A DNA stretch of 64,000 nt from the NCBI RefSeq assembly GCF_023256325.1, contig NZ_JAGDXI010000016.1, positions 1-64,000 on the forward strand, in the 5' to 3' direction. This document shows, piece by piece, positions 3,610 through 49,133 of this stretch. Position numbers and translations under genes: made by a program. The notes beneath the pieces were generated by a model. That model did not search any database. It was not told the origin of the DNA and saw only the letters and a program-made list of their open reading frames with translations. Each line of letters starts with the position of its first letter. Within the stretch, counting starts at the first letter, position 1. Source of the stretch: Caldisphaera sp. GTDB taxonomy: Archaea; Thermoproteota; Thermoprotei_A; Sulfolobales; Acidilobaceae.

Positions 3610-3631
3610 TTGTTAACTCCCCGGTTAACAA
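3610..3631. repeat. 22-bp palindrome, copy A (GTTAAC pair)
   Basis: Arms TTGTTAAC and GTTAACAA flank the spacer TCCCCG. It fills most of the gap between the convergent stops of the PAC2 gene (3606) and the frame-corrected encapsulin gene (3635). One of four near-identical copies in the window. The arms could form an 8-bp hairpin or act as a protein-binding palindrome. Confidence 0.85.
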
Positions 3632-3634
3632 TAA

Positions 3635-4706
3635 TTAATCTTGTTTGCTTATTAATGCTATGGATTCGGACATTTTTACTCTAATAGATAAGGTTTCCCA
3701 AATTTCAAATATATGGGACGAGCCCTGTAGTCCTATGTAATCAAGTTTATTGCTTGCTCCAAAAACTATATTTGCTATTCCTGTTGGAAGGTATAAGTAA
3801 AGCTTCTCCATATTTAATACCTTCAGAAACTACTATTTTATCTACTACCTTGCTAACCCTTGTTAGCTCATCAATTCCTGAAGGATCGACCACAGATGAT
3901 AAATATGCTCTATCAGAAGGTGAAATAACTAGGCTTAATTGAGATTTTGATGCAATATTGTTTACGGCTTTTGACATTAGAGCGGTAAAAGATCCTGGAG
4001 ATGACCAGTTACCTTGAATTTTAACTTTAGCTTGAGAAGATAGAGTATTAAATATTAAAGTATCTTCTTGTTTTGCTAATAATGTGGATGCCCAAATTAC
4101 AGAAGAAATAGGAGGTTTAGATAACATTCTTCTATAGTAATCGAGAATTTCTTGTTCTATGCTAAAATATGTGCTCAGTTTTTGCAAAGGAATTATATCG
4201 GAAGAAGATTTAATTATTTCTCCTTCCAAAAGCTTTTCTGATGGTACTGCTAATGTACCATCACCAAGGGTTAATGAGGTCATAAATGATCTAAGCTTTG
4301 CATTTTTTAATAAAGTTTCATTTATTGCAGACTTAATTTCATTAACTTCAGTATCATTAAGTGGGCCTAATGGATCAAGAGCCTTATTGTCTTTAGAATT
4401 TTTTTGCTCAGAATTTTCTAAAAGAGAAGAAACTTCCTTACCTCCTTTTTCAAGCTCTATAGCTTGCTTAGGATCAAGTCTTTTAAGCAATTCAAGGAAT
4501 TCGCCTAGATGCGTTTTTTCTTCATTAGCTATATCAACTAAAACCTTCTTAACAGATTCATCATTAGTATAACTGGCAAGCTGCATGTATAGGTTTATAG
4601 CATCAAGTTCAGCTATAGCACCTAGCCTAACAATTTCTGCAACTCTATCACCTTCTACTTTAACAAAAGGATCTAGTGGATTTTTTGATAACAAATTCAT
4701 CCCCAT
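3635..4706 (-). CDS. encapsulin shell protein fused to a ferritin-like domain; frameshifted near the C-terminus
   Basis: Forms a protein nanocompartment shell (HK97 fold) that stores or detoxifies iron. Residues about 20-90 form a ferritin-like helical pair with E33 and the EExxH ligands E62, E63 and H66. After a Ser/Lys-rich linker, residues about 130-306 match the shell domain. This fused layout is that of the Pyrococcus furiosus virus-like particle and its Sulfolobus counterpart. The uninterrupted frame stops at 3747 (319 residues). Skipping one T at 3788 gives 50 more residues, ending with IFEIWETLSIRVKMSESIAL, which fits the expected encapsulin C-terminal strand. The corrected length of 356 suits the family. 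The lesion may be a sequencing error, a mutation or a +1 shift at CCT-T. Confidence 0.85.
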
Positions 4707-4735
4707 AATTGATTGTTAATTTAAGTTAATATATT

Positions 4736-4750
4736 TTTTATTTAAATTTG
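4736..4750 (-). promoter_or_regulatory. TATA box of the encapsulin gene
   Basis: On the minus strand the sequence TTTAAATAAAAAAT lies about 31-44 bases upstream of the encapsulin ATG at 4706. This is the right distance for a leaderless or nearly leaderless transcript. No ribosome binding site is seen before the start. Motif match only. Confidence 0.4.
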
Positions 4751-4835
4751 TAATTAAAGCTCTGTATTTAATATATTTTGGATCAATATATTAGAGCTTA
4801 ATAATGTTATTAGATACTATATAGAGGGGAATAAA

Positions 4836-6380: not shown

Positions 6381-6436
6381 AATTTTTTAATTTGATTTCG
6401 TGGAAATATTTAAATAAATTTTCAAATTAAAATTAA

Positions 6437-7710: not shown

Positions 7711-7732
7711 TTGTTAACCGGGGGGTTAACAA
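7711..7732. repeat. 22-bp palindrome, copy B (GTTAAC pair)
   Basis: Arms TTGTTAAC and GTTAACAA flank CGGGGG. It is the exact reverse complement of copy C at 32906. It lies in the 113-bp convergent gap between the membrane-protein gene (ends 7621) and the Mo-oxidoreductase gene, only 2 bases from the latter's stop at 7735. Confidence 0.85.
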
Positions 7733-7734
7733 TT

Positions 7735-8748
7735 TTAACAAAGATCCTTTACATCAGGGTTTCTTATTTTAAATCTTTCATTAGGTAAAACCTTCCCTCT
7801 CTCATGGTATGATAGTGCTTCCCAGTAACCATCTATGTATCTTTCCGATATGTAAAGAGAAGATAGCCATTTTGATCCTTTCCATCCGAAAAGGTCTGGA
7901 GAATAAATCCTTGCTGGAAAACCTGCTTCTGGATTTAATTTGTTCCCATCCATTTCTATAACAACATAAGTGTTTTCCAATATATCTTTTTCAATAGGTA
8001 TTGTTGATGAATAGCCAGACATACTTATAGCAATAATCCACTTTGATTCGCTCTTTAATCCTGATAAATTTATTAAGTCTAATAAGTTAATTCCTTTCCA
8101 TCTTTTTCCCTTAACGCTCCAACCTGTTACGCAATGGAAGTCCTTTTCTCCAATATCTCTTGAAAGCTCTTCTAATTGGCTATATGTTAGCTCAACTTCT
8201 TTAACAACATCTCCTTTTATGCTTAGCCTATATTTATTTAGTTCAACTTTTGGTATTTCTTCTTCAGCAACATAAATAACAAATTTTGGTATTTCTTTTT
8301 GGCCTATAGGTTTTTCAAAAGTAGAACAGTTTTTATCTAAAAAAATCGGCTCCATCTTTTCCCCTTTTTCTAAAACCTTTCCTTTAATTAGTTCATTTTT
8401 TATATTTTCATCTAATTTGCTTAATATTGAAGAAAACATTACTCCACTTGTGTTTAAAAAATACCCGTTTCTTTCTACAATCCTCAATATTCCGTCAAAT
8501 TCATTTATTTTAAATTTATGTAGATTAAAGCTTCTTCCTATAAACTCTTTTTCAATATAGCTCCCAAGTTTAAAATTATAACCGAACAATTCATTTAGTT
8601 CTTTAATTGATTCTAAAGCTATACTTTTTATATCGTTAAAATCTTTTATTTTTATTGACCCTCCGCATTCAAACACTATAGGTATGTTTAAGCCCTCAAG
8701 CAAATTGTTATAATATGACTTGCAGCCGCTTATTTCCATAATTTTCAC
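7735..8748 (-). CDS. sulfite oxidase/MsrP-like molybdopterin oxidoreductase with extra N-terminal domain
   Basis: Residues about 170-330 are an oxidoreductase molybdopterin-binding domain (PF00174), with C206 in the motif FHCVTGWSVKGKRWKG as the expected molybdenum ligand, followed by FPARIYSPDLFGWKGSKW. The family uses Mo-pterin to oxidise sulfite or reduce S- or N-oxides; the substrate here is unknown. Residues 1-165 are a separate domain I do not recognise, with a few Cys (C9, C28, C141). No Tat or Sec signal is present, so it should be cytosolic, unlike many relatives. It is divergent from the HerA-like gene. Confidence 0.8.
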   Translation of the reverse strand: MKIMEISGCKSYYNNLLEGLNIPIVFECGGSIKIKDFNDIKSIALESIKELNELFGYNFKLGSYIEKEFIGRSFNLHKFKINEFDGILRIVERNGYFLNTSGVMFSSILSKLDENIKNELIKGKVLEKGEKMEPIFLDKNCSTFEKPIGQKEIPKFVIYVAEEEIPKVELNKYRLSIKGDVVKEVELTYSQLEELSRDIGEKDFHCVTGWSVKGKRWKGINLLDLINLSGLKSESKWIIAISMSGYSSTIPIEKDILENTYVVIEMDGNKLNPEAGFPARIYSPDLFGWKGSKWLSSLYISERYIDGYWEALSYHERGKVLPNERFKIRNPDVKDLC

Positions 8749-22326: not shown

Positions 22327-23808
22327 ATGTTTATTATAAAGGATTTTGAATTAGCTGGTAGAATAGGAATTTTAAAAACAAATAGGGGGATTATAGAAAC
22401 TCCTGCATTTTTCCCAGTTATAGATCCTTTGAAGCAAGATGTTGGAATAAAGGAAATCGAAGAGATGGGATTTAATCAAATTATAACAAATGCTTATTTA
22501 TCATATAAGAGATTTGGGGAAAAAGTAATTAGTGAAGGAATTCATAAGGTATTAGGATTTGATAAAGTAATAATGACTGATTCGGGGGCATATCAGGTAT
22601 TAAAATATGGGAGTATTGATGTCAACCAGGAAACAGTTATGAACTTTGAAAAAGCTATTGGAAGTGATATTGCTGTTATTTTAGATAAGCCAACAGGAGA
22701 CACTGATTTAAAGGAAGCTGAAGAGAGTGTTGAAGAAACATTAAAAAATGCTTACGATGCAGTTAAATTAAAAGATGATAAAACTATTTGGGTCCTTCCT
22801 ATACAAGGAGGAAAATATTTAAATTTAGTTGAAAAAAGTGCCAGAGAATCATCAAATCTCCCATTTGAGATGTTTGCTATTGGTAGCCCAACAGTTTTTC
22901 TTGAAAAGTATGGTTATAATCTTATAATAGATATGATAGCGACTGCAAAGAAATACTTACCTCCAGAAAAACCTTTACACCTTTTTGGAGGAGGTCATCC
23001 ATTAATTTTTCCATTTGCCATAGCAATGGGTGTAGATACATTTGATTCCGCTTCATATGAATTATATGCAAAAGATGATAGATATATAACGGATTATGGA
23101 ACTGAAAAGTTAGAGGATTTAGAGTATTTTCCTTGCAATTGTCCAGTTTGTTCTAAATATACCCCTAAGGATTTAATGGAAATGGATGTAAAAGAGAGAA
23201 GGAAGCTTTTATCAATACATAACTTATATGCAATTAAAAAATCAATAAATAGAACTAAACAAGCAATAAGAGAAGGGAGGCTTTGGGAATTTTTAGTTGA
23301 GATCTCTAGGTATAGACCAGAAGCGCAAAGCGCCTTAAGATCATTAAGCAAACATATAAAGTATATGGATAGATTTAATCCTAAGTATAAGGGAAATCCT
23401 AGAGGGCTTAAGTTTTATGGAATAGAAAACACTTGGAATCCAAGAATTATTAACTATAAATCATGGGTTTTAACAAAATATGAAATAAAAGGAAAAGACG
23501 GAATTATAATGAAACCTTATAGAGGTTGCAAAAAAGAAGATATAAAAAATATGAATTTAATATATTACGCTCCTTACTTAGGTTTAATACCTTATGAAAT
23601 TTGTGGTCTATATCCAACGGCTCAATTTCATTACGTTAATCCAATTCCAAAAGAAGTTGAAAATGAACTAGTTAATACTATTAGAGCGTTTATTATAAAG
23701 AATAGGCAAAATAAAATAATAAAGGTATTTGCAGATAAGAATATTTTATTTAGTTATAGTGTAGGAATTGAAGCTGAAAAATTAGGTGTAGAGGTTTTAT
23801 GGAGTTAG
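22327..23808 (+). CDS. tgtA: archaeosine tRNA-guanine transglycosylase, without PUA domain
   Basis: Exchanges guanine at tRNA position 15 for preQ0 as the first step of archaeosine synthesis. D85 in TDSGAYQ and D240 in FDSASYELY are the catalytic aspartates, and C270, C272 and C275 in CNCPVCSK are zinc ligands. The protein ends at residue 493 after the C2-type region, whereas many archaeal TgtA proteins extend to about 580 with a C-terminal PUA domain. That domain is missing here and may be supplied by the separate PUA protein at 2412. It follows the SmAP3 gene closely. Confidence 0.92.
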   Translation: MFIIKDFELAGRIGILKTNRGIIETPAFFPVIDPLKQDVGIKEIEEMGFNQIITNAYLSYKRFGEKVISEGIHKVLGFDKVIMTDSGAYQVLKYGSIDVNQETVMNFEKAIGSDIAVILDKPTGDTDLKEAEESVEETLKNAYDAVKLKDDKTIWVLPIQGGKYLNLVEKSARESSNLPFEMFAIGSPTVFLEKYGYNLIIDMIATAKKYLPPEKPLHLFGGGHPLIFPFAIAMGVDTFDSASYELYAKDDRYITDYGTEKLEDLEYFPCNCPVCSKYTPKDLMEMDVKERRKLLSIHNLYAIKKSINRTKQAIREGRLWEFLVEISRYRPEAQSALRSLSKHIKYMDRFNPKYKGNPRGLKFYGIENTWNPRIINYKSWVLTKYEIKGKDGIIMKPYRGCKKEDIKNMNLIYYAPYLGLIPYEICGLYPTAQFHYVNPIPKEVENELVNTIRAFIIKNRQNKIIKVFADKNILFSYSVGIEAEKLGVEVLWS

Positions 23809-24833: not shown

Positions 24834-24869
24834 AGGAATAGTTGCAATAAAAATTAAATATATTTATTG

Positions 24870-25295: not shown

Positions 25296-25391
25296 TTTAA
25301 TCATCCATAAGTATTATGCATAGAAAGTTTTTAACTTTTTCTTATAAAAAATAGTTTCTTTATAATAAAAAATAGTAGTTATTATTGTGTT

Positions 25392-26327: not shown

Positions 26328-26408
26328 CCTCTACTAATTTTATAATTGTTAGAACCTGTAATTAGGTTTATATAAATGAGACGTATTGAATTTTTACTAA
26401 ATCCCTTT

Positions 26409-27719: not shown

Positions 27720-27817
27720 TTACTTCACCTAAATCCCTATTAATTCTTATCCATGTAAAAATAGCTTGTTAGTATTTTATATTGTCTAATGAATTTGAGC
27801 TATCTTTAGCAATGAAT

Positions 27818-30256: not shown

Positions 30257-30583
30257 CTCAGTTACCTGGATTACTAGGAAATCATTAAATTAAAAATTTA
30301 TTTAAGTCAGAGTTCTACCTAAATTAAAAATTAATATAAAAAATGTAAAAAGTCAAAGAACAGTATTGTTTAGAAAAAATAATAGGATTATAAAACACTG
30401 ATAGGTATTTTAATTTATTAGTAATTGCTATAGCAATCTATTATTTTCTTGCCTAAAATTTAATTTTAAAACCTCTTAACAATTATTAAGTTATTCTCAT
30501 ATTTTTTGTATTATTACGGAGTTAAGTTTAAATATGTTACAGAAAAATTAAAGAATAGCGAATAAAAGAGGTGTTCGTATATC
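30257..30583 (+). other. 327-bp AT-rich intergenic region with pilin promoter
   Basis: This divergent gap between valS and the pilin gene is very AT-rich. A TATA-like TTTAAATA at 30527-30534 sits about 50 bases before the pilin ATG at 30584, and GAGGTG lies 10 bases before that start. I see no open reading frame, RNA gene or repeat in the rest. Confidence 0.5.
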
Positions 30584-31087
30584 ATGAAATATACGATTAA
30601 AGGTTTAAGTATGAGAAAAAATAATAAGGCAATATCTGATATAGTAGCGGTTGTCATGCTTATTTTAATTGCTATAGCTGCAGCAGTATTGATTTATTTG
30701 TGGCTAAGCGGATTAGTTGGTTCAGTACATTCATCAAATCCTGCCCTAACTGAAAGAATTAGCATAAATGCTGTTGTTATAAATTTCAGTAGCAGCACTT
30801 GGTACGTAACTGCTTATGTATTAAATTCTGGTTCTAGCCCCGTAACAATAAATGCCTTATATGTTTTAAATGCTAGCAATGGGGCAACATTATTTGGTGG
30901 TTCAACGTTATATAGCAGTGTTAACGGCGGCACGCAAACATCGTCTATTTCTATACCAGCTAACACAGTAGAACCAGTGGTTTATAGGGCAAGCTCTTCT
31001 CAAGTACCGTCAGCGGGTACTCCAATTATTGTTGAGGTAACAACAACAAATGGGGTTCAGGCAACTTATCAACTAACATGGCCTTAA
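30584..31087 (+). CDS. archaeal type IV pilin (paralogue 1)
   Basis: A 167-residue pilin. The class III-type head RKNNKAISDIVAVVM is followed by a hydrophobic helix (LILIAIAAAVLIYLWL), the standard archaeal pilin N-terminal domain. The ectodomain is rich in Ser, Thr and Val. Its C-terminal pattern (TTNGVQATYQLTWP) matches the pilin at 33167 almost exactly, so the two are paralogues. Start uncertain: ATG 30584 is preceded by GAGGTG, whereas ATG 30611 gives a more typical short head. It has its own promoter and is not linked to the assembly operon at 16-21 kb, whose machinery may export it. Confidence 0.85.
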   Translation: MKYTIKGLSMRKNNKAISDIVAVVMLILIAIAAAVLIYLWLSGLVGSVHSSNPALTERISINAVVINFSSSTWYVTAYVLNSGSSPVTINALYVLNASNGATLFGGSTLYSSVNGGTQTSSISIPANTVEPVVYRASSSQVPSAGTPIIVEVTTTNGVQATYQLTWP

Positions 31088-31120
31088 ACCTAAATAATTA
31101 CTTTATTTTTATTTTCTTTT

Positions 31121-32509
31121 TTATATTAAATAGCTTAAATCACCAGGTATTTTAGGTATATTACCAGATATATTTAATACATCTTTTTCTAAATCATTAA
31201 CTATTTTATCAATATTTTCATCTATTTTATCAATTTCAACTTTCTTTTCAACCCTTTTCCCATCATAAACAGATACAGTTATCTTTTTGCTTTCAACTTC
31301 TTTTTTACCAACATAAATTATTATTGGAGGCTTTGCAGTAGTCTCTATTTGTCTAACATCTCCTGATAAGCTGGTCCTGCTAGTCTCTTTATATCCAGAC
31401 CTAAATCCATTTTTAATAAGCTCTTTATGTATACCTTTAGCTACATCTTCAACTTTTTCATCACTCTCATCTCCAGCTTTTATTGCCAATACTGCGAATT
31501 GTAGAGGTGATATGGAAAATGGCAACCTACCTTTATAGTTATCTAAATAAACACCCAAAAACCTCTCAATAGATCCAAGTAAAGCTCTATGTATAACATA
31601 AACGTTTATATCACCGAAAACTTCTTTTACCATATCATAAATCTTAAATCTCCTTGCTAAGTTAAAATCAAACTGTATAGTTCCTAGTTGCCACTCCTTG
31701 TTATCTTCCATCTTAACTATAACATCAATTTTAGGTCCATAAAATGCTGCTTCCCCAATACCTTTTATAAATGAGATCCCATAATCTTTCCCTATTTTTT
31801 CTGCAGCCTTTTCCAAAAATTCCTCAGCCTTTTCCCATTCATCTAGACTTCCCATAAATTCAGTTCCTATTTTGCTTCTATCAGATACGCTTAATCTTAT
31901 TTTTATGGTCTCTGGTGAAACTTTTATCTTAAAAAGTTTGGAATATATGGTTATCATTTCATCAAATACATCAGTAACGACTTTTACAGCATCTTTTTCA
32001 GGGGTTATTATATGGGCATCATCTTGGGTAAAAGCCCTTGCCCTTAATAAACCGAAAACGCTCCCACTTGGCTCTAGCCTATGAACCCTTCCTAACTCAA
32101 ATACCTTAAAAGGTAGCTGTATTTTACCCCTATATTTGCCAAGTTCATTCAAGAATATCATTAAATGGAAAGGACAATTCATTGGTTTGACAGCATAATC
32201 TTTATCTTCTAGATGAAAGACATACATGTTTTGCTTATAATACCCCATATGGCCTGATACTTCAAAAAGCGAAGTGCTGCTTATTAATGGGGTTTCAGCA
32301 ATATAATAACCCCTCCTTGCATGGAAATTAGTTAGTATTTGATATAATGAAGACCTTAAATAACCGCCCCCTAAACTAAACAGAGGTATGCCAATGCCTA
32401 TATAATAGCCAAATTCTCTCTCCAATTTGGGCACATTGGTTTCAGGCTTTATTGCTATGTCTAGGTCATATGCATAATCCATGTGGTTTTTTTCAGCTTT
32501 TTCGCTCAT
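31121..32509 (-). CDS. thrS: threonyl-tRNA synthetase, catalytic type without editing domain
   Basis: Charges tRNA-Thr. The 462 residues begin almost directly with the class II catalytic core (FGYYIGIGIPLFSLGG), with no N-terminal TGS or archaeal editing domain. Motif 2 is FELGRVHRLEPSG, motif 3 lies around HRALLGSIERFLGVYLD, and PMNCPFH carries a zinc-binding Cys. The C-terminal anticodon-binding domain (residues about 355-450) is present. Some crenarchaea pair such a ThrS-cat enzyme with a separate editing-only ThrS-ed protein; no ThrS-ed is in this window. It is convergent with the pilin at 30584. Confidence 0.92.
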   Translation of the reverse strand: MSEKAEKNHMDYAYDLDIAIKPETNVPKLEREFGYYIGIGIPLFSLGGGYLRSSLYQILTNFHARRGYYIAETPLISSTSLFEVSGHMGYYKQNMYVFHLEDKDYAVKPMNCPFHLMIFLNELGKYRGKIQLPFKVFELGRVHRLEPSGSVFGLLRARAFTQDDAHIITPEKDAVKVVTDVFDEMITIYSKLFKIKVSPETIKIRLSVSDRSKIGTEFMGSLDEWEKAEEFLEKAAEKIGKDYGISFIKGIGEAAFYGPKIDVIVKMEDNKEWQLGTIQFDFNLARRFKIYDMVKEVFGDINVYVIHRALLGSIERFLGVYLDNYKGRLPFSISPLQFAVLAIKAGDESDEKVEDVAKGIHKELIKNGFRSGYKETSRTSLSGDVRQIETTAKPPIIIYVGKKEVESKKITVSVYDGKRVEKKVEIDKIDENIDKIVNDLEKDVLNISGNIPKIPGDLSYLI

Positions 32510-32616
32510 AATTTTACACCTCTTAAATTTTTATTAGATTAAAATTTAAATCTTTCATTATTGTCTATGAGTTATTTATTAATTATGAGCTTTTATTTTG
32601 AAACGATTTTTTATAT

Positions 32617-33084
32617 TTGGGAGAAGAAATGGAGGTAAAAATAATTCCGGTAATCCATAATATTAGCAGTGTGCAAAAACTTATAGATATGGCTAGGCTT
32701 AGCTTTGGTTTTGGTTACAAAAACATAATCATAACAAAAGCATACGGAGGTGCAGCTCAAAACGGTGTTGCTGAGGTATTTAAGATATCCTTAAAAGAAA
32801 ACAAAGGGGTTGTTGTTTTACCTGATTTAAAAGATGTAATAGATCTCTACAATCCAAAAAAGGTAATATTAATAGATAAAGAGAATTCAAAAGACGAGAT
32901 AGATATTGTTAACCCCCCGGTTAACAATGATCTAATGCTTGTATTTAATGGATCGGATTCATCATTTTCTCCTTCTGAAATTTCTCTTGGAGAGCCGTAT
33001 TATATAAAAGGGGTTAAAGGTAAGATTGGTAGTGTTGCCGAAGCTGCCCTCTTGCTTTATGCGTATTCAAAATTCTTAGCTTAA
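32617..33084 (+). CDS. SPOUT-like archaeal protein (often annotated RecB-family nuclease)
   Basis: A 155-residue conserved crenarchaeal protein. The C-terminal ISLGEPYYIKGVKGKIGSVAEAALLLYAY resembles the knotted SAM-binding end of SPOUT methyltransferases, and homologues are labelled RecB-family nuclease or SpoU-like in databases; I recall that labelling and have not checked it. No nuclease motif is visible. The 22-bp palindrome copy C lies inside the gene and encodes the segment DIVNPPVNND (near residues 96-105), in a loop between two conserved blocks. The likely start is ATG 32617 or ATG 32629. Confidence 0.75.
   Translation: MGEEMEVKIIPVIHNISSVQKLIDMARLSFGFGYKNIIITKAYGGAAQNGVAEVFKISLKENKGVVVLPDLKDVIDLYNPKKVILIDKENSKDEIDIVNPPVNNDLMLVFNGSDSSFSPSEISLGEPYYIKGVKGKIGSVAEAALLLYAYSKFLA
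32906..32927. repeat. 22-bp palindrome, copy C (GTTAAC pair), inside a coding sequence
   Basis: Arms TTGTTAAC and GTTAACAA flank CCCCCG. It is the exact reverse complement of copy B. It is read in frame inside the SPOUT-like gene as IVNPPVN. The only intragenic copy of the four. Confidence 0.85.
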
Positions 33085-33134
33085 ATAGAAATAACATAAG
33101 TTTTCCTTAAAGATTTCATTTAATAGCACCAGAG

Positions 33135-33156
33135 ACCCTGCTTGCAAGGGCGGGGT
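33135..33156. repeat. GC-rich hairpin between convergent genes
   Basis: ACCCTGC (33135-33141) pairs with GCGGGGT (33150-33156), with one G-U, around the loop TTGCAAGG. It stands out in AT-rich surroundings, between the SPOUT-like gene and the pilin stop at 33167. It could be a terminator-like hairpin or a relic of an IS200/IS605-type element end, whose ends often carry CCCCGCCC hairpins. Confidence 0.5.
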
Positions 33157-33166
33157 AATTTACTAT

Positions 33167-33607
33167 TTACGGCCAATTTGTTTGGTAAGTTGCCTTAACT
33201 CCGTTAGTAGTTATAACCTCTATAATCACAGGAGTGCCTGGATTAACATGAACTTTAGTATTGTTTGATGCATATACAAGCCCAACGCTTTTAGGATTTA
33301 TATTTAAGTTCCCAGATGGTGTGTTATTAAAGAATATTAATGAGTTATTGTAGTATAAAACTGCAACGCTGCTTATAGACGTTTGAGATCCTAGATTTTG
33401 CACATAAGCGTAAGCTATATAATTATTGTTTCTATACGTTATGTTAGCTGAACTAATTTCAATTTTTACATATAGTGCTGGATCATTATAGTGCATTGAC
33501 CCTATTAAACCATTTAGCCAAACATATAACAGTAAAGAGGCTGAGATAGCTACTATTATTAGCATAACGACAGCAACTATTTCAGATATTGATCTCTTTT
33601 TGCTCAT
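33167..33607 (-). CDS. archaeal type IV pilin (paralogue 2)
   Basis: A 146-residue pilin with head SKKRSISEIVAVVMLIIV and a hydrophobic helix through about residue 30. The ectodomain ends TTNGVKATYQTNWP, nearly the same as paralogue 1 at 30584, and many NxS/T sequons suggest glycosylation. I place the start at ATG 33607, which has GGTG six bases before it; the frame also opens at ATG 33619. It faces the SPOUT-like gene and is divergent from the secreted protein at 33739. Export probably relies on the ATPase and platform genes at 16-21 kb. Confidence 0.85.
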   Translation of the reverse strand: MSKKRSISEIVAVVMLIIVAISASLLLYVWLNGLIGSMHYNDPALYVKIEISSANITYRNNNYIAYAYVQNLGSQTSISSVAVLYYNNSLIFFNNTPSGNLNINPKSVGLVYASNNTKVHVNPGTPVIIEVITTNGVKATYQTNWP

Positions 33608-33738
33608 TTTTTCCACCATATTTATTATTTAAATCTAAATTTAAAAACTTAAGCAATTTATTCCCTACACTTTCCCTACACTTCCCAGAGGTTCCCTAAT
33701 ATAGCTTAAATTACATAATCTAAGATGGGTGATAAAAA

Positions 33739-35184
33739 GTGAAAGGATTTGGCATAAAGATTGCCTCTTTGCTATTGACTTTGATGGTAATAGGGGCTAT
33801 AATCTTTCCCTTTGTAAATGCTCAGCCTTCAAGTAATAATGGAAATGCAGAAAACCAAAACTCAACATTAATTCTATTAAATATAACTAGTAAAGCAATT
33901 AACTTTGCTAAAAATAATGGTATAAATGTTACATTGGCTCAAAAATACTATCAATTAGCTCTATCATCATATAATGAAGGCAACTATACACAAGCACAAA
34001 TATATTTACATTTAGCTATGAAGGTATTGGCAAAGCAAATGGAAAGTAAAAAAGAAACGGTAACGCCTGTTTTACAGGCTGAAGGTATTAAGGTACAATT
34101 AAAGCTAATAGAGAACTTTGTTAGCAAGAGCAAATTATTTAATGAAACATATAAAAACATGATATTATCTCAAATAAATCAATCTTTATTATATTTAAAT
34201 GAAGGAAATGTAAGCCAAGCGGCTAAAACTCTTTCAGAGATAAAGCAAGAACTTATGCAGGCATCAGTAAAGATATCAGATGTAGCCAAACAAAGAGTTT
34301 CCCACTTTATAAAGAACAAAATTAAAAACGAAATTAATAATATGAATAAAATGTTTGAGTCAGAGATGGGGAATGTTACATCAGAGTTCAGTTATAACGT
34401 TAATGTAACACCAGTTTTAAGTCTTGTTGAAAAAGAAATTAATTCAACTAATATAAGCGTTAACACATACGCCCACATACTAATTGCTTTAAACAATTTG
34501 GAAAACTTCATAGTAAATCAAAAGATTTCGTTTGTTTTCAATTTGTCTGGCAGAAATAAAGAGCTATGGGGAATTTTAATCAATCTAGAGGCTATAAACA
34601 GGTCTTTAAATATGGTATCTGCTAGGACAAATAACCAAAATATAAATAATGCAATAAGTCTTATGGAAGAGTCAATAAACGAGACCAAATTCTCCATTAA
34701 GGAATGGTATATAGGTAATGATACTGGAGCATTAAAACTCATAAACGAATCAATTCAAAATGATATACAGGCTCAACAATACTTATCTAATACATCAGGT
34801 ATGGCAAACATGCTCATACCAATTTCAAATAGAATATATAAACTGGACTATATGGTGCTTAAATTAATAAACAACACTATAATAATTGGTAAAAGCGTTG
34901 AAATAGAAGGCTTTGTTATTTGGAACCTATCATCAAACAGCTATTTAATAGTTGGTCATATAATATCAATAGGAAATAATATGATGTTTATGCCTGTAAC
35001 CGAGCACATGTGGCAATTGATGATAATAAATGTTTCCAAGTCAACGCAAATAAATGGAACCATATATCCAAATGAAGTCGTTAAAATAAACGGTATTATA
35101 ACTGGAAAATACTATGCTATATATGAGGTAAATGCAACCCAAATAACTGTTTTAAGCAATTCAACAAATACAGTTAATTCATAA
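33739..35184 (+). CDS. secreted helical glycoprotein, unknown function
   Basis: A 481-residue exported protein. Residues about 1-29 are a Sec signal peptide (SLLLTLMVIGAIIFPFVNAQ, probable cleavage after NA). The body to about residue 370 is strongly helical, with segments rich in Asn, Lys, Leu and Glu that look like TPR-like or coiled-coil repeats (ALSSYNEGNYTQAQIYLHLA, LLYLNEGNVSQAAKTLSE). The last 110 residues are beta-rich. It has many N-glycosylation sequons and no C-terminal anchor. It starts at a GTG, seven bases after GGTG. The next gene, an anchored surface protein, follows at once, so the two may form a cell-surface complex. Confidence 0.7.
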   Translation: MKGFGIKIASLLLTLMVIGAIIFPFVNAQPSSNNGNAENQNSTLILLNITSKAINFAKNNGINVTLAQKYYQLALSSYNEGNYTQAQIYLHLAMKVLAKQMESKKETVTPVLQAEGIKVQLKLIENFVSKSKLFNETYKNMILSQINQSLLYLNEGNVSQAAKTLSEIKQELMQASVKISDVAKQRVSHFIKNKIKNEINNMNKMFESEMGNVTSEFSYNVNVTPVLSLVEKEINSTNISVNTYAHILIALNNLENFIVNQKISFVFNLSGRNKELWGILINLEAINRSLNMVSARTNNQNINNAISLMEESINETKFSIKEWYIGNDTGALKLINESIQNDIQAQQYLSNTSGMANMLIPISNRIYKLDYMVLKLINNTIIIGKSVEIEGFVIWNLSSNSYLIVGHIISIGNNMMFMPVTEHMWQLMIINVSKSTQINGTIYPNEVVKINGIITGKYYAIYEVNATQITVLSNSTNTVNS

Positions 35185-35195
35185 CGGTGTTAATA

Positions 35196-35879
35196 ATGAA
35201 TATTAAAGTACCAATACTGCTTTCATTAATTTTTATTATCTTTTTAATGCCTTTAGTTGGACATGCTTATCAATCCTACCAATATAGCCAACTGTACATT
35301 GATGAGTATGGTGATCTAAGCGGCTATTTTATAGTAAATGTTACTAATGCCCCAACAGTTGTGACTATAAACATACCTGGAAATATATCTGCGTATGAAG
35401 CTGTTAGCGGCAATACAAGCTTACCAGTTACAATTAATAGAAATAATGTTAGCGTTTTGGTCGAAAATAATAGTATAGTAAACTTGTCATTTATTTCTTT
35501 TAACGCTGCAATACAAAAAGGTGAGACATTTTTCCTAGACATAGACTTGCCTTCATACACAAATCTAATTTTACCTAGCAACGCTGTTATAATTTACACA
35601 AATGCAACAATACAGGGCATTAATGGAAATACAATAAGTCTATATCCTGGAAACATTGAAATAGAATATTCAATTCAAAATATCACAACTACTTCTACTA
35701 CAACTATTACCTCAACATCTACTATTACCTCAAATTCTTCTACATCGACCTCCTCTACAACGCCTCCCTCAACCTCAATATCGCCTACAACAAAAGGCAT
35801 AATATTATATGGGGTTATTGGCATTGTAGTAGTTATAATAGCAATAGCAGTTTTATTATTATTGAGAAGATCTAAATAA
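35196..35879 (+). CDS. Ser/Thr-stalked membrane-anchored surface protein
   Basis: A 227-residue extracellular protein. An N-terminal signal peptide (LLSLIFIIFLMPLVGHA) is followed by a beta-rich domain to about residue 160, then a stalk of nearly pure Thr and Ser (residues about 163-197), and a C-terminal membrane helix (GVIGIVVVIIAIAVLLLL) with a basic RRSK tail. The stalk is a likely O-glycosylated spacer that lifts the domain through the S-layer. The start ATG 35196 has GGTG six bases upstream. It probably acts with the secreted protein at 33739 in the same operon. Confidence 0.72.
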   Translation: MNIKVPILLSLIFIIFLMPLVGHAYQSYQYSQLYIDEYGDLSGYFIVNVTNAPTVVTINIPGNISAYEAVSGNTSLPVTINRNNVSVLVENNSIVNLSFISFNAAIQKGETFFLDIDLPSYTNLILPSNAVIIYTNATIQGINGNTISLYPGNIEIEYSIQNITTTSTTTITSTSTITSNSSTSTSSTTPPSTSISPTTKGIILYGVIGIVVVIIAIAVLLLLRRSK

Positions 35880-35932
35880 ATATTTACAAAAGTTTTTATT
35901 TTCTATATATAAATTATTTATAGGTGGTTTAG

Positions 35933-36508
35933 GTGCACTCATGGAGAGAAGAATTTTGGGGAAGACATAATTTATTTGATAGTGATGAAATAGTTAAAGA
36001 AGTCTTAAATAAAATAAACCTAGCAAAAGGATTTTATGTTGCGGATTTAGGCTCAGGCACAGGTAGGTTTACTATACCCTTAGCAAAAGAAATAGGGGAA
36101 AATGGAAAGGTTTTTGCGGTTGATATATCAAAGGAATCATTAACGATATTGAAAGAAAATGCTGATAGAGAAAAATTAAATAATATTGAAATTGTATATG
36201 GAGATATTTCAAAAAAGATACCTCTTGACGATAATTCTATCGATGTGGCTTTTATGGCAAACGTTTTTCATGATATCCTTTATGAGGGTAATGAATCAAT
36301 TGTATTAAGTGAAATAAAGAGGATTTTAAAAAATAATGGTAGGTTAATAATTTTGGAGTTTAAAAAGATAAGAGGTCCTCCAGGTCCACCAATTTTTATG
36401 AGAATTTCGCATGATGAGTTAATTAATATTTTAAATAAAAATGGTTTTTCAGCAAAATATTTGGGAGAAATAGGCAAATATCATTATTTAATGGAGGCAA
36501 GGATATAA
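35933..36508 (+). CDS. class I SAM-dependent methyltransferase
   Basis: A 191-residue methyltransferase with the glycine-rich motif VADLGSGTGRFTIPLA near residues 36-51, the acidic VDISKESL near 64, and a motif IV-like DVAFMANVFHDI near 103. The fold resembles UbiE- and ArsM-like enzymes, but no arsenic-binding Cys are seen, so the substrate is unknown. The start is a GTG at 35933, six bases after GGTG. It is followed after 26 bases by the M24 gene and may be co-transcribed. Confidence 0.82.
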   Translation: MHSWREEFWGRHNLFDSDEIVKEVLNKINLAKGFYVADLGSGTGRFTIPLAKEIGENGKVFAVDISKESLTILKENADREKLNNIEIVYGDISKKIPLDDNSIDVAFMANVFHDILYEGNESIVLSEIKRILKNNGRLIILEFKKIRGPPGPPIFMRISHDELINILNKNGFSAKYLGEIGKYHYLMEARI

Positions 36509-36570
36509 ATGCCTAAAAGAATTTAATTTAATAGGTGGTAGAGATTTTTAAAATTAGTAAAGGAGAGTTA

Positions 36571-37734
36571 ATGAAAAGGATAAATTCTGTATTAGATAAA
36601 ATAAAGGAAAGCAATTATGATGCTATCTATCTAACTAACCCAACTAACATTTTTTATTTAACAAATATTTCAATAATATCAACAGAAAGGCCATTCGCTC
36701 TAATAATTCCGGTTGATGGATCTCCAATAGCTTTTTCTCCATCTGTAGAAAAAAATCATTTAGAATACAGGAATTCAATTGCAGGAAATATAATAAATCA
36801 AATTTATTATTATTTTGATTATCCTGGTGAAGTTCATCCATTGAATAAAGTAGTTGATATAATAAAGGAATTCAAAATAAAAAGTCTTGCAACTGATAAT
36901 TCAATAGGAGCAAATCCGATATGGGGCTATAAAGGACCAAAGCTTTCTGATTTATTGCAGAAAGAAGGTATTAAAGTAGATAATTTAGGGGAAATAATAA
37001 ATGAAATGAGACTAATTAAATCAAATGAAGAGATAGAACTAATAAAAGAAAGTGGAAAATGGGCCGCAAGATCAATAAAGATTGCTATGGATTTAATAGA
37101 AGAAAATAAATGGGATTGGGAAATAGCTCTCGATGCCAGTATGAAGGTACTTCATGAAATGAATAAACAATATTCCCCTTATTTACCTTTAAGAGAATCT
37201 GTTGGAATGGTTGTTGGTTTTAGAGGGCAAGTAGGAGAGTTCTCCTCTTATCCTCACGCATTAGTAAGTGAAAGATCTATAAGAAAAGGTGATATTCTAG
37301 GAATAGGTGCAGGACCGGAAATAGGAGGGTATTACTCTGAGCTTGAAAGAACCTTAATATTTGGAAAACCAAATGAAAGAATTCTAAATTATTTTAATAA
37401 AATGCTTGAGTTAAGAGAGGAAGCCTTTAACGCATTGAGACCTAATATAAGTGCGTCTGAAGTTGATAAAGCAGTTATGGAAAAAGCTAAAAAGCTAAAA
37501 GTAGAAGAATTTTTAAGACATCATACAGGTCATGGTTTGGGTTTAGAAGGTCATGAACCTCCATTTTTAGATATCGGCTATAATGTAGAATTAAAGCCAG
37601 GTATGGTGGTAAGCATAGAGCCTGGGATATACAATAATTACGGAGGATTTAGGCACAGCGATACAGTTTTAGTAACAAAAAATGGCAATGAATTGCTAAC
37701 TAACTTCCCTGATGAGGAAGAGTTAATATTATAA
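36571..37734 (+). CDS. M24-family (Xaa-Pro peptidase/creatinase-like) protein with altered metal ligands
   Basis: A 387-residue creatinase-plus-pita-bread protein. The overall layout is that of Xaa-Pro dipeptidase: N-terminal domain to about residue 135, then the M24 domain with H321 in HHTGHGLGLEGHEPP and E350 in SIEPGIY. However, the metal ligands of the peptidases differ: the first Asp is Gly245 (GDILGIGAGP), the second is Glu257 (SELERT instead of SDxTRT), and the final Glu is Ser363 (GFRHSDTVL). It may be a metal-independent hydrolase like creatinase or another non-peptidase. I use ATG 36571 with AAGGAGA upstream; the frame opens at 36535. Its end overlaps doxX. Confidence 0.78.
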   Translation: MKRINSVLDKIKESNYDAIYLTNPTNIFYLTNISIISTERPFALIIPVDGSPIAFSPSVEKNHLEYRNSIAGNIINQIYYYFDYPGEVHPLNKVVDIIKEFKIKSLATDNSIGANPIWGYKGPKLSDLLQKEGIKVDNLGEIINEMRLIKSNEEIELIKESGKWAARSIKIAMDLIEENKWDWEIALDASMKVLHEMNKQYSPYLPLRESVGMVVGFRGQVGEFSSYPHALVSERSIRKGDILGIGAGPEIGGYYSELERTLIFGKPNERILNYFNKMLELREEAFNALRPNISASEVDKAVMEKAKKLKVEEFLRHHTGHGLGLEGHEPPFLDIGYNVELKPGMVVSIEPGIYNNYGGFRHSDTVLVTKNGNELLTNFPDEEELIL

Positions 37735-38148
37735 ATAAAATGGTATTTTTAGTATATAATCTATTGAATATATTCCGGGGCCTGTTATTATTAGCACTAA
37801 TGATATAATTAAATATATAACGTCAATTTCCGATGCAGCCGGGTTATTTATCATTAGATACGGAGATTTCATTTTTATTCCTTTAACATATAAAACTATA
37901 GATAAAAACTGTAATAAAAACAATATAGCAGCTATCCTAGTTAGAAAACCGAATATTAATGCTATTCCTCCCACCAATTCTAGCAAAGCCGTTGCGTAGG
38001 TTAAACCTTCAGGAACTCCAGCACCTTTCATGAACTTTGCTACCCCTTTCAGATCTTTAAGCTTGGGAAGCGAGTGTCCAATCATATTTATACCCATGAG
38101 TAATCTAATGATAAATATTCCAAGGGATGCGCCAAATAAGTAATTCAT
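37729..38148 (-). CDS. DoxX family membrane protein
   Basis: A 139-residue protein with four hydrophobic helices (residues about 5-25, 50-70, 74-92, 113-133), typical of the DoxX/DoxD-like family. It contains the RLLMGINMIGHSLPKL block near the N-terminus and the GVPEGLTYATALLELVGGIALIFGFLTR signature. In Acidianus, DoxD is a subunit of thiosulfate:quinone oxidoreductase, but short DoxX proteins elsewhere have unknown redox roles. I use ATG 38148, six bases after GGTG. It is divergent from the HxlR regulator, which probably controls it. Confidence 0.85.
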   Translation of the reverse strand: MNYLFGASLGIFIIRLLMGINMIGHSLPKLKDLKGVAKFMKGAGVPEGLTYATALLELVGGIALIFGFLTRIAAILFLLQFLSIVLYVKGIKMKSPYLMINNPAASEIDVIYLIISLVLIITGPGIYSIDYILKIPFYL

Positions 38149-38202
38149 TTCTATCACCTAGCTCTTTTTATTATTTTATATTCAAAATACTAAATATATA
38201 CT

Positions 38203-38228
38203 AGCAACTATTACTGTATGTAGTAGCT
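38203..38228. promoter_or_regulatory. inverted repeat, candidate HxlR operator
   Basis: AGCAACTA (38203-38210) and TAGTAGCT (38221-38228) form a 26-bp imperfect palindrome (7 of 8 positions) in the doxX/hxlR divergent gap, near where the hxlR transcript should start. A TATA-like AAATATATAC lies just before it. A dimeric HxlR protein could bind here; this is a motif inference. Confidence 0.45.
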
Positions 38229-38250
38229 TTTCTGAAGCGAAGTGATAAAA

Positions 38251-38586
38251 ATGGGGCAAGAGAAATGCGAGCTAACACAGAATTTATGGGAAAGACTTGC
38301 TAAGAAGTGGACTCTAGCAGTTGTTTACAATTTAGGTGTTTCTAAAGGTAGCGGTTTTAATGAACTAAGAAATAGAATAGGGAGTATTAGCCCTTCTAGC
38401 CTAGTTGAAAGGCTTACAGAGCTTGAAGGAATGGGCATAATAAAAAGGGAAGTAATCCCTAGTAAACCTCCAAAGGTATTATATAGATTAACTCAAAAAG
38501 GAGAAGAACTATATAAAATATTAGATCAATTGGCATCATGGTATCTATCTAATGAGGAAACATTAGAAAAATCTCTTAAAGTATAA
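38251..38586 (+). CDS. HxlR-type winged-helix transcriptional regulator
   Basis: A 111-residue HxlR/MarR-like regulator. CELTQNLWERLAKKWTLAVVYNLG and LVERLTELEGMGIIKREV, then RLTQKGEELYKIL, are the usual HxlR layout with the winged helix at the centre. An N-terminal Cys (C5) may sense redox or electrophiles, as in HypR and YodB. I use ATG 38251; the frame opens nine bases earlier at a GTG. It is divergent from doxX and followed by a small membrane protein and an MFS transporter, which could be its targets. Confidence 0.87.
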   Translation: MGQEKCELTQNLWERLAKKWTLAVVYNLGVSKGSGFNELRNRIGSISPSSLVERLTELEGMGIIKREVIPSKPPKVLYRLTQKGEELYKILDQLASWYLSNEETLEKSLKV

Positions 38587-38615
38587 ATTTTTATTTTCAT
38601 TTAATTCTGAACTCC

Positions 38616-38981
38616 TTGGAGCTAGAGTTGCAAAAAGAATTAAGGTTAATGATGATAATATTAGTTGCGTTGGGTTTGATTACAGGGTTAATTTTAGGAA
38701 TATCAGGTATACCTATGATAATTGGATTAACAATAACAATAGGCTTCCTTCTTTATATCATCTCAGCTTTAATATACCCCAATTCAAGGTTTATTTTCTT
38801 AGGATTAATGGTAGGAGGAGATATAGGGTCTATAATAACTTTATTTTCTCATCCCTTAGTTTTACCTTTTTTGATAATAGAAAGAGGTAATGGACATATA
38901 TCAATAGATATAGATTTTGTCCAAATCATAGTTTTTGCTGAAATAATATATCAAATAATAAAATATTTAAAAAGAAGGTGA
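38616..38981 (+). CDS. small four-helix membrane protein, unknown function
   Basis: A 121-residue integral membrane protein with about four hydrophobic segments (residues 12-32, 33-53, 58-85, 98-115) and basic ends. I do not recognise the family. The start is a TTG, either 38616 or 38628; the latter has GGAG six bases before it. It lies between the HxlR regulator and the MFS transporter, only four bases before the latter, so it is probably part of that operon and may act with the transporter. Confidence 0.6.
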   Translation: MELELQKELRLMMIILVALGLITGLILGISGIPMIIGLTITIGFLLYIISALIYPNSRFIFLGLMVGGDIGSIITLFSHPLVLPFLIIERGNGHISIDIDFVQIIVFAEIIYQIIKYLKRR

Positions 38982-38985
38982 TAAA

Positions 38986-40074
38986 TTGAGACAAGAGCTA
39001 TCAATATATTTTTCTAGGACTATCTATGCTGCTCAATGGTATATATTAGCTCCTGCAACATTAGCCATAGCAGAAGCTGAAAATGTAAGCAAGGGATTAA
39101 TAGGCTTTCTACCATTTGCATTTATAATAGGTGCAGCAATAACCCAAATACCTGCTGCATATCTTTCATCTAAAATTTCACCTAAAAAGACATTTTTAAT
39201 AGGTTTATTTATATTGTCATTATCTGACATTTTAGTGCCGTTTACAAACAAGTTTATTTATGCAATATTATTAAGAATCTTGGCAGGTCTAGGAGCAGGC
39301 CTATATTTTTCCCCTGCAGCAGCTGTTTTAGTATATTCAAATAAAGAAAGGTCAGCAACCTTAATGGGCTTATATAATGCAGCTTTTAGTATAGGAGGTC
39401 TAATAGGGTTATCTTGGGGTTTGGTAGATGCTCTTTTAGGTTGGAGGGAGGCAACATTTATAGGAGGTCTAATAGGGCTAGTAGCCTTTTTAGAAAACTT
39501 GTTTTTTGTTAAAGATATTAAGCTTTCATCTAAAAACAAAATGGTTTTTGATAAAAAGCTAATAATTTTAGGAATAGCCACATCAGGTATTTGGGGAAGT
39601 AGCTATGCTGTTGGTACATTAATTCCTTCTTTTGCGTCAGAATTATATAAGATTAGCTCATATAGAGTAAGCCCATTAGTTTCCTTATATTTCCTTGGGA
39701 ACATTATAGGAGGTTCTTTAACTTCATTATTTGAGAAGAGGAATAAGTTTAATTCAATTTTATTAATGGCTGCTTTAACAGGTATTACTTATCCTCTATA
39801 TGGCATACTAGGAATATATTTTATGGCTTTTGCATCACTTTTAAATGGCATTTTTGTTAATGTTACGACAAGCATTTATTATGCGTTAGCAATTGATGAA
39901 TTAAATTCAATAAACGAGTCATTATCATTATCAATAATAAACTTGATAAACATGGTTATAGGGGTATGGGTTTCTCCAATATTTTCATTAGCCATGTCTA
40001 TAAATCTAAAGTTATCTTTATATATATTGCTTGCCTCAACTATTATACCGGTAGTGTTAATTAAAAAATTATAA
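38986..40074 (+). CDS. major facilitator superfamily transporter
   Basis: A 362-residue transporter with about eleven to twelve membrane helices. The MFS pattern is visible around residues 50-90 (AAYLSSKISPKKTFLIGLF and LRILAGLGAGLYFSPAA), the usual loop 2-3 and helix 4 region. The second half has weaker motifs. Two near-identical segments, IGGLIGLSWG and IGGLIGLVAF, lie within 70 bp. The substrate is unknown. The start is TTG 38986, with GGTGA just before it. Its place behind HxlR and a small membrane protein hints at efflux. Confidence 0.8.
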   Translation: MRQELSIYFSRTIYAAQWYILAPATLAIAEAENVSKGLIGFLPFAFIIGAAITQIPAAYLSSKISPKKTFLIGLFILSLSDILVPFTNKFIYAILLRILAGLGAGLYFSPAAAVLVYSNKERSATLMGLYNAAFSIGGLIGLSWGLVDALLGWREATFIGGLIGLVAFLENLFFVKDIKLSSKNKMVFDKKLIILGIATSGIWGSSYAVGTLIPSFASELYKISSYRVSPLVSLYFLGNIIGGSLTSLFEKRNKFNSILLMAALTGITYPLYGILGIYFMAFASLLNGIFVNVTTSIYYALAIDELNSINESLSLSIINLINMVIGVWVSPIFSLAMSINLKLSLYILLASTIIPVVLIKKL

Positions 40075-45950: not shown

Positions 45951-45974
45951 CCTAATTTTATATATGATTTTGGT

Positions 45975-47537: not shown

Positions 47538-47650
47538 ATTTTTATCAAATTTTTCAAGAAAAAGCTTTTTAGAGGTGATTTAAAAGATTTTTATAAGTTT
47601 AAAAGGCGGATCTTTATTAAATATAATAGAAATAAAAATGATGAACTATC

Positions 47651-48262
47651 ATGATAAATAATAAAAAATTATTAATCATTTCAACAGATATTGGCAATAT
47701 AAAAATTGTTGGCGATAAAAGAGTTTATATACCATCAGATGATAGCTTTTTGATTATAAAAGCAATGCTTATACTTAAGGATAAAGGATATTCGTTTAAC
47801 AGAATCATAGATATTGGAACAGGGTCTGGAATCCTATCTGTAGCAGCACAAAGAATATTTAATCCTAGGATATTGATTTCAACAGATATATCTCCATATG
47901 CAGTTGTTGATGCCAAAAAAACAATGGAAGAAGAGGGGGTAAGTTCTCTTGTTATTAGATGTAATGGAACTTCTTGTTTGAAAGGAAAATATGATCTATC
48001 TATTGTAAATCCTCCTTACTTACCATCAAATGACAAAATAAAAAGAGATAGTTGGATTATAAAGACTTGGCAAGAAGGTAGAAATCATAAAAAAGTTTGT
48101 ATCGCATCAACAATATCAGAAAACATACTGATTTTAAGATCTAGTTTATCAAGGTTCGATCAAAATAAATGCCTTAAAAAGTTCAATTATAATAGGATAA
48201 AATTAATTGAGGAAAATACTTTTATGGAAAGGCTTGAGGTAAATTTCTGGAGTAAAATCTAA
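47651..48262 (+). CDS. HemK2/PrmC-like protein glutamine methyltransferase
   Basis: A 203-residue SAM methyltransferase with IIDIGTGSGILSVAAQ near residues 56-71 and the NPPY motif in DLSIVNPPYLPS near 117, which marks N5-glutamine or adenine methyltransferases. Archaeal HemK2 methylates the GGQ motif of release factor aRF1, the probable role here. The part after NPPY appears shortened: the segment holding the usual late strand and GG turn seems reduced (GRNHKKVCIASTISENILIL). It could be an imperfect or truncated homologue. A TATA-like TTTATTAAATAT precedes the ATG. Confidence 0.72.
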   Translation: MINNKKLLIISTDIGNIKIVGDKRVYIPSDDSFLIIKAMLILKDKGYSFNRIIDIGTGSGILSVAAQRIFNPRILISTDISPYAVVDAKKTMEEEGVSSLVIRCNGTSCLKGKYDLSIVNPPYLPSNDKIKRDSWIIKTWQEGRNHKKVCIASTISENILILRSSLSRFDQNKCLKKFNYNRIKLIEENTFMERLEVNFWSKI

Positions 48263-48298
48263 TCTTTTAATATTAGCTAAAGGCCTGTAATTTAAAAA

Positions 48299-48931
48299 CT
48301 AATGGAGGTTTTTCTCTATATATTTTAGAATTAACTCGATTCTGCATTGCAATTCTTTATTGATTTGTTTGTATTTGAAACTAATAATTTCATTGTATAT
48401 AGAATTTAGTTGTTTATTTATTTCTGTGCTTGAATCAACTTTTTCTGCCTGTATTTTTGGTCCGCCTTCCATAAATCCCTCTGGATAATACCAATCCTTT
48501 AACCAAAAAAATCCTAAATTAAATAACTTAAAACCAAGCCGCGTTAAAACAGGTATTATACCTAAGCTTAATTCTTTTAAAGTTTTTTCATCATTTGTAT
48601 ATTCAACGAACAGCTTATCGCCAGGCTCTAAATTTTCAGATAGAAATTCTAATATTTTACTTTCCATTTTGCTATCATAAAAATCTATATAGAGTCCTTC
48701 AACTTTTATTTTATTTGGTATATCAAAAACTTTCACCCAAGGTTTATAGTAAGGTGGCCTTCCTAGAAATATTTTCATTTTTAGTAAACTAATTTCTTCT
48801 TTATTATATTTAAATATCAATAATAGATTCTTTTCCTCTTTAAATCTACCATTCAAAATTTTGCCTGATCTTATCTCATAATCCTCAATTTTAAATCCTT
48901 CTTTTAGTTTGCTAATAAAATCTTTTTTCAA
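48299..48931 (-). CDS. DUF1122 family protein
   Basis: A 210-residue archaeal protein of unknown function. Several blocks match what I know of DUF1122: LGRPPYYKPWVKVFDIP near residues 56-72, EGLYIDFYDS near 78-87, LEPGDKLFVEYTNDEKT near 101-117, and KDWYYPEGFMEGGPKIQAEK near 144-163. The family is often adjacent to methyltransferases. The start is a TTG. It is convergent with the HemK2-like gene and upstream of the palindrome-containing gap. Confidence 0.7.
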   Translation of the reverse strand: MKKDFISKLKEGFKIEDYEIRSGKILNGRFKEEKNLLLIFKYNKEEISLLKMKIFLGRPPYYKPWVKVFDIPNKIKVEGLYIDFYDSKMESKILEFLSENLEPGDKLFVEYTNDEKTLKELSLGIIPVLTRLGFKLFNLGFFWLKDWYYPEGFMEGGPKIQAEKVDSSTEINKQLNSIYNEIISFKYKQINKELQCRIELILKYIEKNLH

Positions 48932-49111
48932 TTTGATCTCGTACTTATCATAAAAAAAGAGACTTTATAAAAAAGTGTTAATAAAAAGGATGGTAAGTTT
49001 TTCTGGAATATCAGGAAAAGACACCTTAAGTATAAATAATTTATATCTTTTGTATATAAATATGTGATAAGATCTATAAATAAAATATATTTTGTTTTAA
49101 TAATAAATTAA

Positions 49112-49133
49112 TTGTTAACTGGGGGGTTAACAA
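49112..49133. repeat. 22-bp palindrome, copy D (GTTAAC pair)
   Basis: Arms TTGTTAAC and GTTAACAA flank TGGGGG. It lies in the divergent gap between the DUF1122 gene and thermosome beta, about 200 bases upstream of the thsB promoter. The dyad extends to AATTG and CAATT at the ends. Confidence 0.85.

Follow-up and report, generated by a model that had tools for sequence, protein, structure and literature searches.

The four copies of a 22-bp palindrome in a 64-kb stretch of the genome of Caldisphaera sp. (hereafter the window, meaning the whole stretch analyzed) belong to a family of real, constrained, and origin-linked sites, in which two GTTAAC-type arms enclose a six-base YCCCCR core. The sites recur across the chromosome, bracket the replication initiator gene whiP in relatives, lie near orc1-1 in some genomes, and are dense on Sulfolobaceae plasmids; the link to these initiator genes and to plasmids is new here. 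The palindromes are best explained as putative sites of one sequence-specific, likely host-encoded dimeric protein with an origin-linked nucleoid or regulatory role, a reading drawn from sequence to which we give about an even chance. Crenarchaea have several origins, and little is known about the linkage of origins, chromosome organization, and plasmids. Letter-perfect sites around an initiator gene in two families, dense on plasmids as well, provide direct bait for the binding protein, and the site family is open to experiment in the genetically tractable Saccharolobus and Sulfolobus.

A constrained palindrome family

A preliminary description of the window had reported four palindrome copies, and the letters of the window confirmed each of them, with 16 arm bases identical in all four (TTGTTAAC and GTTAACAA arms) and the second and third copies (B and C) being exact reverse complements. 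The spacers, in copy order, are TCCCCG (between TTGTTAAC and GTTAACAA), CGGGGG, CCCCCG, and TGGGGG. Chance recurrence had been called improbable, and the expectation from base composition agrees: 0.0001 pairs of the 16-base arms would be expected in the window, which has a GC content of 32%. GTTAAC alone is not enriched there (23 seen, 21.7 expected). With up to three mismatches allowed, the window gave seven matches against 0.73 in shuffled sequences, and the three extra matches are without the CCCC core.

The description had raised the possibility that the genome contains just these four copies, or that relatives contain none. The 1.52-Mb genome holds 24 exact copies of GTTAAC-N6-GTTAAC, all 24 of which have the YCCCCR core, and the motif recurs in relatives; the reversed control pattern gave no match in the same genome. 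When spacers of 2-14 bases were allowed, the spacing was six in 24 of 25 pairs in this genome (G000, the 24 being those of the N6 search), 29 of 30 in the relative G003, and 23 of 24 in the relative G004. The core departs from YCCCCR at two of the 29 sites of G003 and at one of the 23 of G004. Within the genus, an alignment of 53 sites gave a conserved block of about 24 bp, ATTGTTAAC-YCCCCR-GTTAACAAT, in which the core was preset by the search pattern, so that the unbiased evidence for the core comes from the N6 search in the Caldisphaera sp. genome and from the variable-spacer search. Beyond about 24 bp, the information drops to near background and the flanks are not common to the copies. The sites lie mostly outside open reading frames (ORFs) of at least 100 amino acids (17 of 25 in G000 and 22 of 28 in G003), while the coding fraction of the window is 0.92.

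Conservation of place and reversal of the core

Seven sites hold an aligned place between Caldisphaera sp. and G003 although their flanks differ by about 18-28%. Of the four aligned sites that are intergenic or touch a gene edge, three have the core in flipped polarity, as judged by alignment for two and by eye for one; none of the four aligned intragenic sites does. The flipped sites come from two species within one genus. The reversals, with arms and flanks kept, are seen on comparing L121:5880 with L130:15363, window:3613 with L131:2134, and L193:2982 with L123:9564. Both polarities are also present around whiP. A directional element of the Chi or KOPS type was rejected in view of this free polarity. 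In four genes, 28 of 29 codons within sites are identical between the species, compared with 378 of 677 outside, a descriptive comparison that is biased because the genes were picked for having the site in both species.

Distribution among genomes

Of the 214 genomes available for the order, 93 contain the pattern TWWACYCCCCRGTWWA. Counts per genome reach about 30 in the family of Caldisphaera sp. (f1) and 40 in f11, which was taken as Sulfolobaceae from genomes G192 and G199; they are 4-12 in genus g26 of f4, 2-6 in genera g45 and g46 of f8, and 0-2 in f2, f3, f5, f6, f7, f9, and f10. Outside the order, six of the 398 phylum genomes sampled were matched, with 10 matches in total and no excess over the reversed control. 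A scan of the whole collection placed most loci, among the matches listed, in Acidilobaceae, Desulfurococcales, Aeropyrum, Candidatus Hestiella, or Candidatus Tiamatella. Bacteria account for 13 of the 80 rows among these listed matches, with one match each, and these single matches were taken for chance.

Association with whiP and orc1-1

One gene, orthologous between Acidilobus and Aeropyrum, is flanked in both by a pair of inverted sites separated by about 1 kb, and a search with its protein matched 115 of the 214 genomes (E ≤0.001). Judged by sequence position, the flanked gene is whiP, because the match in Sulfodiicoccus acidiphilus (G199, 1016659-1017309) fits the published place of whiP, which directly follows the predicted origin at 1,016,172-1,016,607 according to the available passages of PMC6647314. 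Excerpts of two papers describe Sulfolobus oriC3 as dependent on WhiP (PMC4010727, PMC5134839), and parts of PMC10769869 relate the two origins of A. pernix to oriC1 and oriC3.

In 11 genomes chosen for single main contigs and full site lists, the 2.5 kb on either side of whiP hold 23 of the 190 sites, against 0.50 expected, and whiP is bracketed on both sides in all 11; this count used the main contig only for G192 and G196, and 28 of the 29 G003 sites, one being left unplaced. Among the best 30 WhiP loci, all from f1, 21 have a site (≤2 mismatches) within 1.5 kb. Four control consensuses with changed arms gave none at these 30 loci, and two that retained the GTTAAC arms gave eight each; the latter overlap real sites and are poor controls. 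Further afield, whiP is bracketed in the f4 genome G210, where four of the 12 sites fall no more than 1.5 kb from it, and no site was found (≤2 mismatches, 1.5 kb) at the WhiP loci of f7 (two), f3 (one), and the f4 genome G026. The surroundings of whiP in Sulfodiicoccus contain a single two-mismatch site 1.8 kb past the gene start. A scripted search of 15 motif-less whiP loci, two of them from one genome, revealed no substitute palindrome common across genera; a few perfect dyads recur within one genus.

An AT-rich element (TACTATACACC...GTATTATGGCG-like) is found shortly 3' of whiP across genera (L155, L158, L159, L178, L160, L125, and L128), as judged by reading rather than alignment, and is present even where the palindromes are missing. 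This element is possibly the origin core.

The sites also occur at orc1-1: in G190 and G209 one lies 43-44 bp before the ORF, and in G192 and G196 the distance between site and orc1-1 match is at most about 110 bp. In G003, a site lies 510 bp past the orc1-1 match, and in both G003 and G000 it falls within the following gene. Inspection by eye of two Sulfolobaceae origins placed the palindrome beside the repeat resembling an origin recognition box (ORB) that is nearest the orc1-1 start, and found no palindrome within the AT-rich region. Near the third orc1 paralog, a site was seen 2-3 kb away in three genomes (G190 1908143, G196 1162236, and G192 916964). In the Fervidicoccus-type family f8, a site pair (L011:1416-2313) brackets a gene that by eye is dCTP-deaminase-like, much as sites bracket whiP elsewhere. 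Among 386 distinct sites, in which whiP loci were over-sampled, clusters of orthologous neighbors included whiP, the winged-helix neighbor of whiP, TiaS with the POR gene, orc1-1, and thermosome.

Occurrence on plasmids

Of ten matching plasmid records, seven were analyzed, namely those of the Sulfolobaceae plasmids pB12E5, pNOB8, pING1, pHVE14, pYN01, pAH1, and pKEF9, and all seven are enriched in the motif, with 6-13 exact copies and 10-20 copies at ≤1 mismatch where 0-0.1 would be expected. PLSDB types four of the seven as conjugative. The plasmid form is TAAACTGGGGAGTTTA, and the dyad TWWAC-YCCCCR-GTWWA is a pattern that the window sites fit too, the plasmid sites being mostly TAAAC-N6-GTTTA. 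Many of the plasmid copies are intragenic, some of them at nearly constant positions: in five of seven plasmids a ZapB-like gene has a site 8-11 bases from its stop, and in five of six a gene of 158-165 amino acids has one 186-198 bases from its stop, in both cases on the 5' side of it. In G192, contig C1 has 13 sites at the pB12E5 positions, and 13 sites with identical spacing are present in the G192 chromosome. Plasmid pB12E5 of Saccharolobus shibatae B12 seems to exist both free (G192 C1) and integrated (G192 C2:2618461-2644374), and integrated elements probably also account for the site clusters seen in G190 and G196.

The papers of Stedman (2000), Greve (2004), and Peng (2000) on the pING, pNOB8, and pRN plasmids reportedly call TAAACTGGGGAGTTTA a recombination motif. 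Compared with this motif of Sulfolobus conjugative and pRN plasmids, the present family is alike in dyad spacing and CCCC core, whereas the arms of its chromosomal copies in Acidilobaceae are longer and better conserved, and these copies are located at whiP and at numerous further genes. We know of no origin link for the plasmid motif. Literature searches by exact letters and by topic found neither the motif nor a link to chromosomal origins, the footprints of Robinson and Bell 2007 and Samson 2013 not being covered by these searches.

A putative docking site for a shared host protein

Taken together, about 25 chromosomal copies, the bracketing of whiP in relatives, and the density on plasmids indicate that the palindrome is probably the docking site of a protein common to chromosomes and plasmids. 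A protein dimer bound on the dyad is suggested by the symmetry of the arms, the fixed spacing, the free polarity, and the absence of a common flank, and the factor would be host-encoded because chromosomes and seven different plasmids have the site in common; an alternative would be a plasmid protein family with homologs on chromosomes. Such a protein would read two GTTAAC-type arms and require the GC core in either polarity, and would be common to the chromosomes of Acidilobaceae and Sulfolobaceae and to Sulfolobaceae plasmids. On the chromosome, it might occupy tens of places, most steadily both sides of whiP with the adjoining origin and, in some lineages, orc1-1. As an origin-linked nucleoid or regulatory factor, it could bound or regulate the initiator unit and organize DNA elsewhere, and plasmids holding many sites might recruit the same factor.

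The preliminary description had offered three candidates: a chromosome-organizing or segregation protein site, a global regulator operator, and a spreading palindromic repeat. The genome-wide protein site is supported by the fixed spacing, the near-fixed core, the mostly intergenic location, the places kept in several genes, and the recurrence across genera and families; a segregation site in particular is conceivable. An operator as the sole role is unlikely because the neighbors examined are mixed and many plasmid copies are intragenic. A spreading repeat family is not favored either, since no flanks are common past about 24 bp and several orthologous places are kept.

Several observations weigh against the shared dimeric protein. 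Only eight of the 25 sites in the Caldisphaera sp. genome could be paired with G003 sites (seven aligned base for base and one in the same gap), in a matching that took in just the G003 stretches around the sites of G003 itself. For the window copy at 49112..49133, no matching site precedes the thermosome gene of G003 or G004, both of which have another gene upstream. The few sites matched to G003, together with this gap being empty in two relatives, imply that sites turn over. Nine of the best 30 WhiP loci have no site (four in g7, three in g8, and one each in g3 and g13; two of the nine, L143 and L148, are truncated on one side by the end of a contig). Of five Acidilobaceae genomes checked, four (G022, G045, G016, and G046) have no site in the 2.5 kb around orc1-1. 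The neighbors other than the clusters named above are a functional mix of metabolism and helicase genes. Finally, a CCCC core that is nearly invariant on the dyad axis is unusual and atypical for a plain dimer operator; a nearly invariant GC core in this place suggests requirements of shape or melting.

The most unusual features are the use common to an initiator locus and plasmids, and the core reversal in place. A bolder proposal, to which we give a low probability, is that the palindromes are docking sites of an undescribed archaeal factor serving both the whiP replicon and conjugative-type plasmids. The whiP-oriC3 unit was possibly captured from an extrachromosomal element, according to parts of PMC4010727; as a captured element, it might keep plasmid-type sites at both borders, and the factor might have been co-opted as a chromosome-wide, origin-linked organizer or segregation protein, with core reversal as a trace of its action. 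Aeropyrum, one of the archaea concerned, is reported in PMC10769869 to lack SMC-type condensins.

Alternative explanations

Of the other binders considered, WhiP itself is possible, though doubtful: it would bind the palindromes genome-wide, repressing its own gene and marking its own origin. Its gene is bracketed in all 11 compiled genomes and in G210, and its protein is predicted to contain two winged-helix domains (mean predicted local distance difference test score, pLDDT, 73.5). In a fold search with this model, whose confidence is moderate, the best structural match was SarS, followed by MarR-type proteins, all winged-helix, although the matches are weak (template-modeling score, TM, ~0.27 over the query); E was below 0.001 for SarS alone, the rest being generic winged-helix proteins. 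The PDB held no meaningful sequence relatives of WhiP. In plasmid initiators of the RepE/pi type, a tandem winged-helix initiator is encoded by a gene bracketed by inverted sites. WhiP resembles them in the predicted tandem winged helices and in the inverted bracketing sites, but the putative binding of WhiP to the palindrome is partly contradicted here. Families f3 and f7, like genus g7 of the family of Caldisphaera sp., retain WhiP although their sites are few or absent; f8 has sites, yet none of the 115 genomes with a WhiP match belongs to it; and all seven plasmids carry sites while the WhiP profile found no homolog among their ORFs of at least 50 amino acids at E up to 10. Thus WhiP, the obvious candidate by position, fails co-occurrence in both directions and is not clearly the binder.

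It is unlikely that the palindrome is a recombination site, whether its arms and core are acted on by a recombinase or it serves as a hotspot for the rearrangement of plasmids and chromosomes. This explanation would suit the label of recombination motif reportedly given to the plasmid form, an asymmetric core between inverted arms, the flipping of that core at aligned sites of two congeneric species, and the high density on plasmids; it fits poorly with the seven sites that hold their aligned place between diverged flanks and with the presence of both polarities around whiP.

We consider it improbable that the palindrome corresponds to ucm, a known element to which the nucleoid protein UBP binds. 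As described in PMC12141716, UBP recognizes a defined motif at origins, and its chromatin immunoprecipitation peaks in S. islandicus number 329, with enrichment between genes; ucm, like the palindrome, is associated with origins (in Sulfolobales and Aeropyrum) and has many other, mostly intergenic, sites. In the same paper, however, ucm measures 11 bp and falls in the unwinding region, which is flanked by ORB2 and ORB3, and the crystal shows a UBP monomer on it, whereas the palindrome lies outside the AT-rich region of the two Sulfolobaceae origins, beside the ORB-like repeat. The two are told apart by description and position, not by letters.

Slightly less probable still is a small mobile palindrome, resembling a miniature inverted-repeat transposable element (MITE) or a repetitive extragenic palindromic (REP) element, or an RNA hairpin or terminator. 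The many copies, the perfect arms, and the absence of one window site from two relatives would agree with it, while conservation ends at about 24 bp without common flanks and aligned places are kept within genes. RNA pairing is not kept, because the core flips and some copies have C-A at the stem end. Rfam gave no match at the window sites, its sole match at gathering score being a tRNA elsewhere in the window, and the RNA reading was rejected.

The least probable alternative is that the motif belongs to the plasmid systems AspA-ParB or PlrA (ORF80/Stf76), for which small winged-helix and PlrA-type genes annotated on the plasmids would speak: the AspA palindrome lies upstream of aspA and the SegB site likewise precedes its own genes (PMC5120986, in part), but pNOB8 has no site (≤1 mismatch) in 22697-40012, where the presumed aspA, before parB and parA, starts at 35127, and ORF80/Stf76 requires TTAA-N7-TTAA (PMC4027180, in part), whereas the palindrome has a spacing of N8 where TTAA is kept and plasmid arms that are mostly TAAA/TTTA. 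The family is similar to parS/ParB, SegB, and AspA in having palindromes near initiator or own genes; it differs in that the SegB and AspA sites precede their own genes, according to the same excerpts of PMC5120986, and no such gene is tied to the present motif. UBP, AspA, and PlrA as binders were rejected by position or letters.

Gene contexts of the window copies

The gene contexts given in the preliminary description were reproduced, with the copies at 3610 and 7711 between convergent genes, that at 49112 in a divergent gap, and that at 32906 intragenic. The last of these (32906..32927) lies within a DUF2122 gene (155 amino acids; 32617-33084, + strand), and the eight codons covering it are the same in the G003 ortholog. 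The copy at 49112..49133 is upstream of the thermosome gene. At 7711..7732, where GGGG is on the + strand and CCCCCG on the - strand, the palindrome stops 2 bp short of the end of a sulfite-oxidase-like gene (7735-8748, - strand). The copy at 3610..3631, with core TCCCCG on the + strand, has its counterpart in G003 aligned at C1:1264132 with opposite core polarity. It is neighbored by a weak proteasome-assembly-chaperone-like gene and a fused ferritin-like/encapsulin gene. The latter (ORF 3747-4706, - strand) encodes an EncB-like ferritin-like cargo domain (residues 16-107) and an encapsulin family 1 shell domain (115-308), both scoring below curated cut-offs, and is read as a fused cargo-shell encapsulin.

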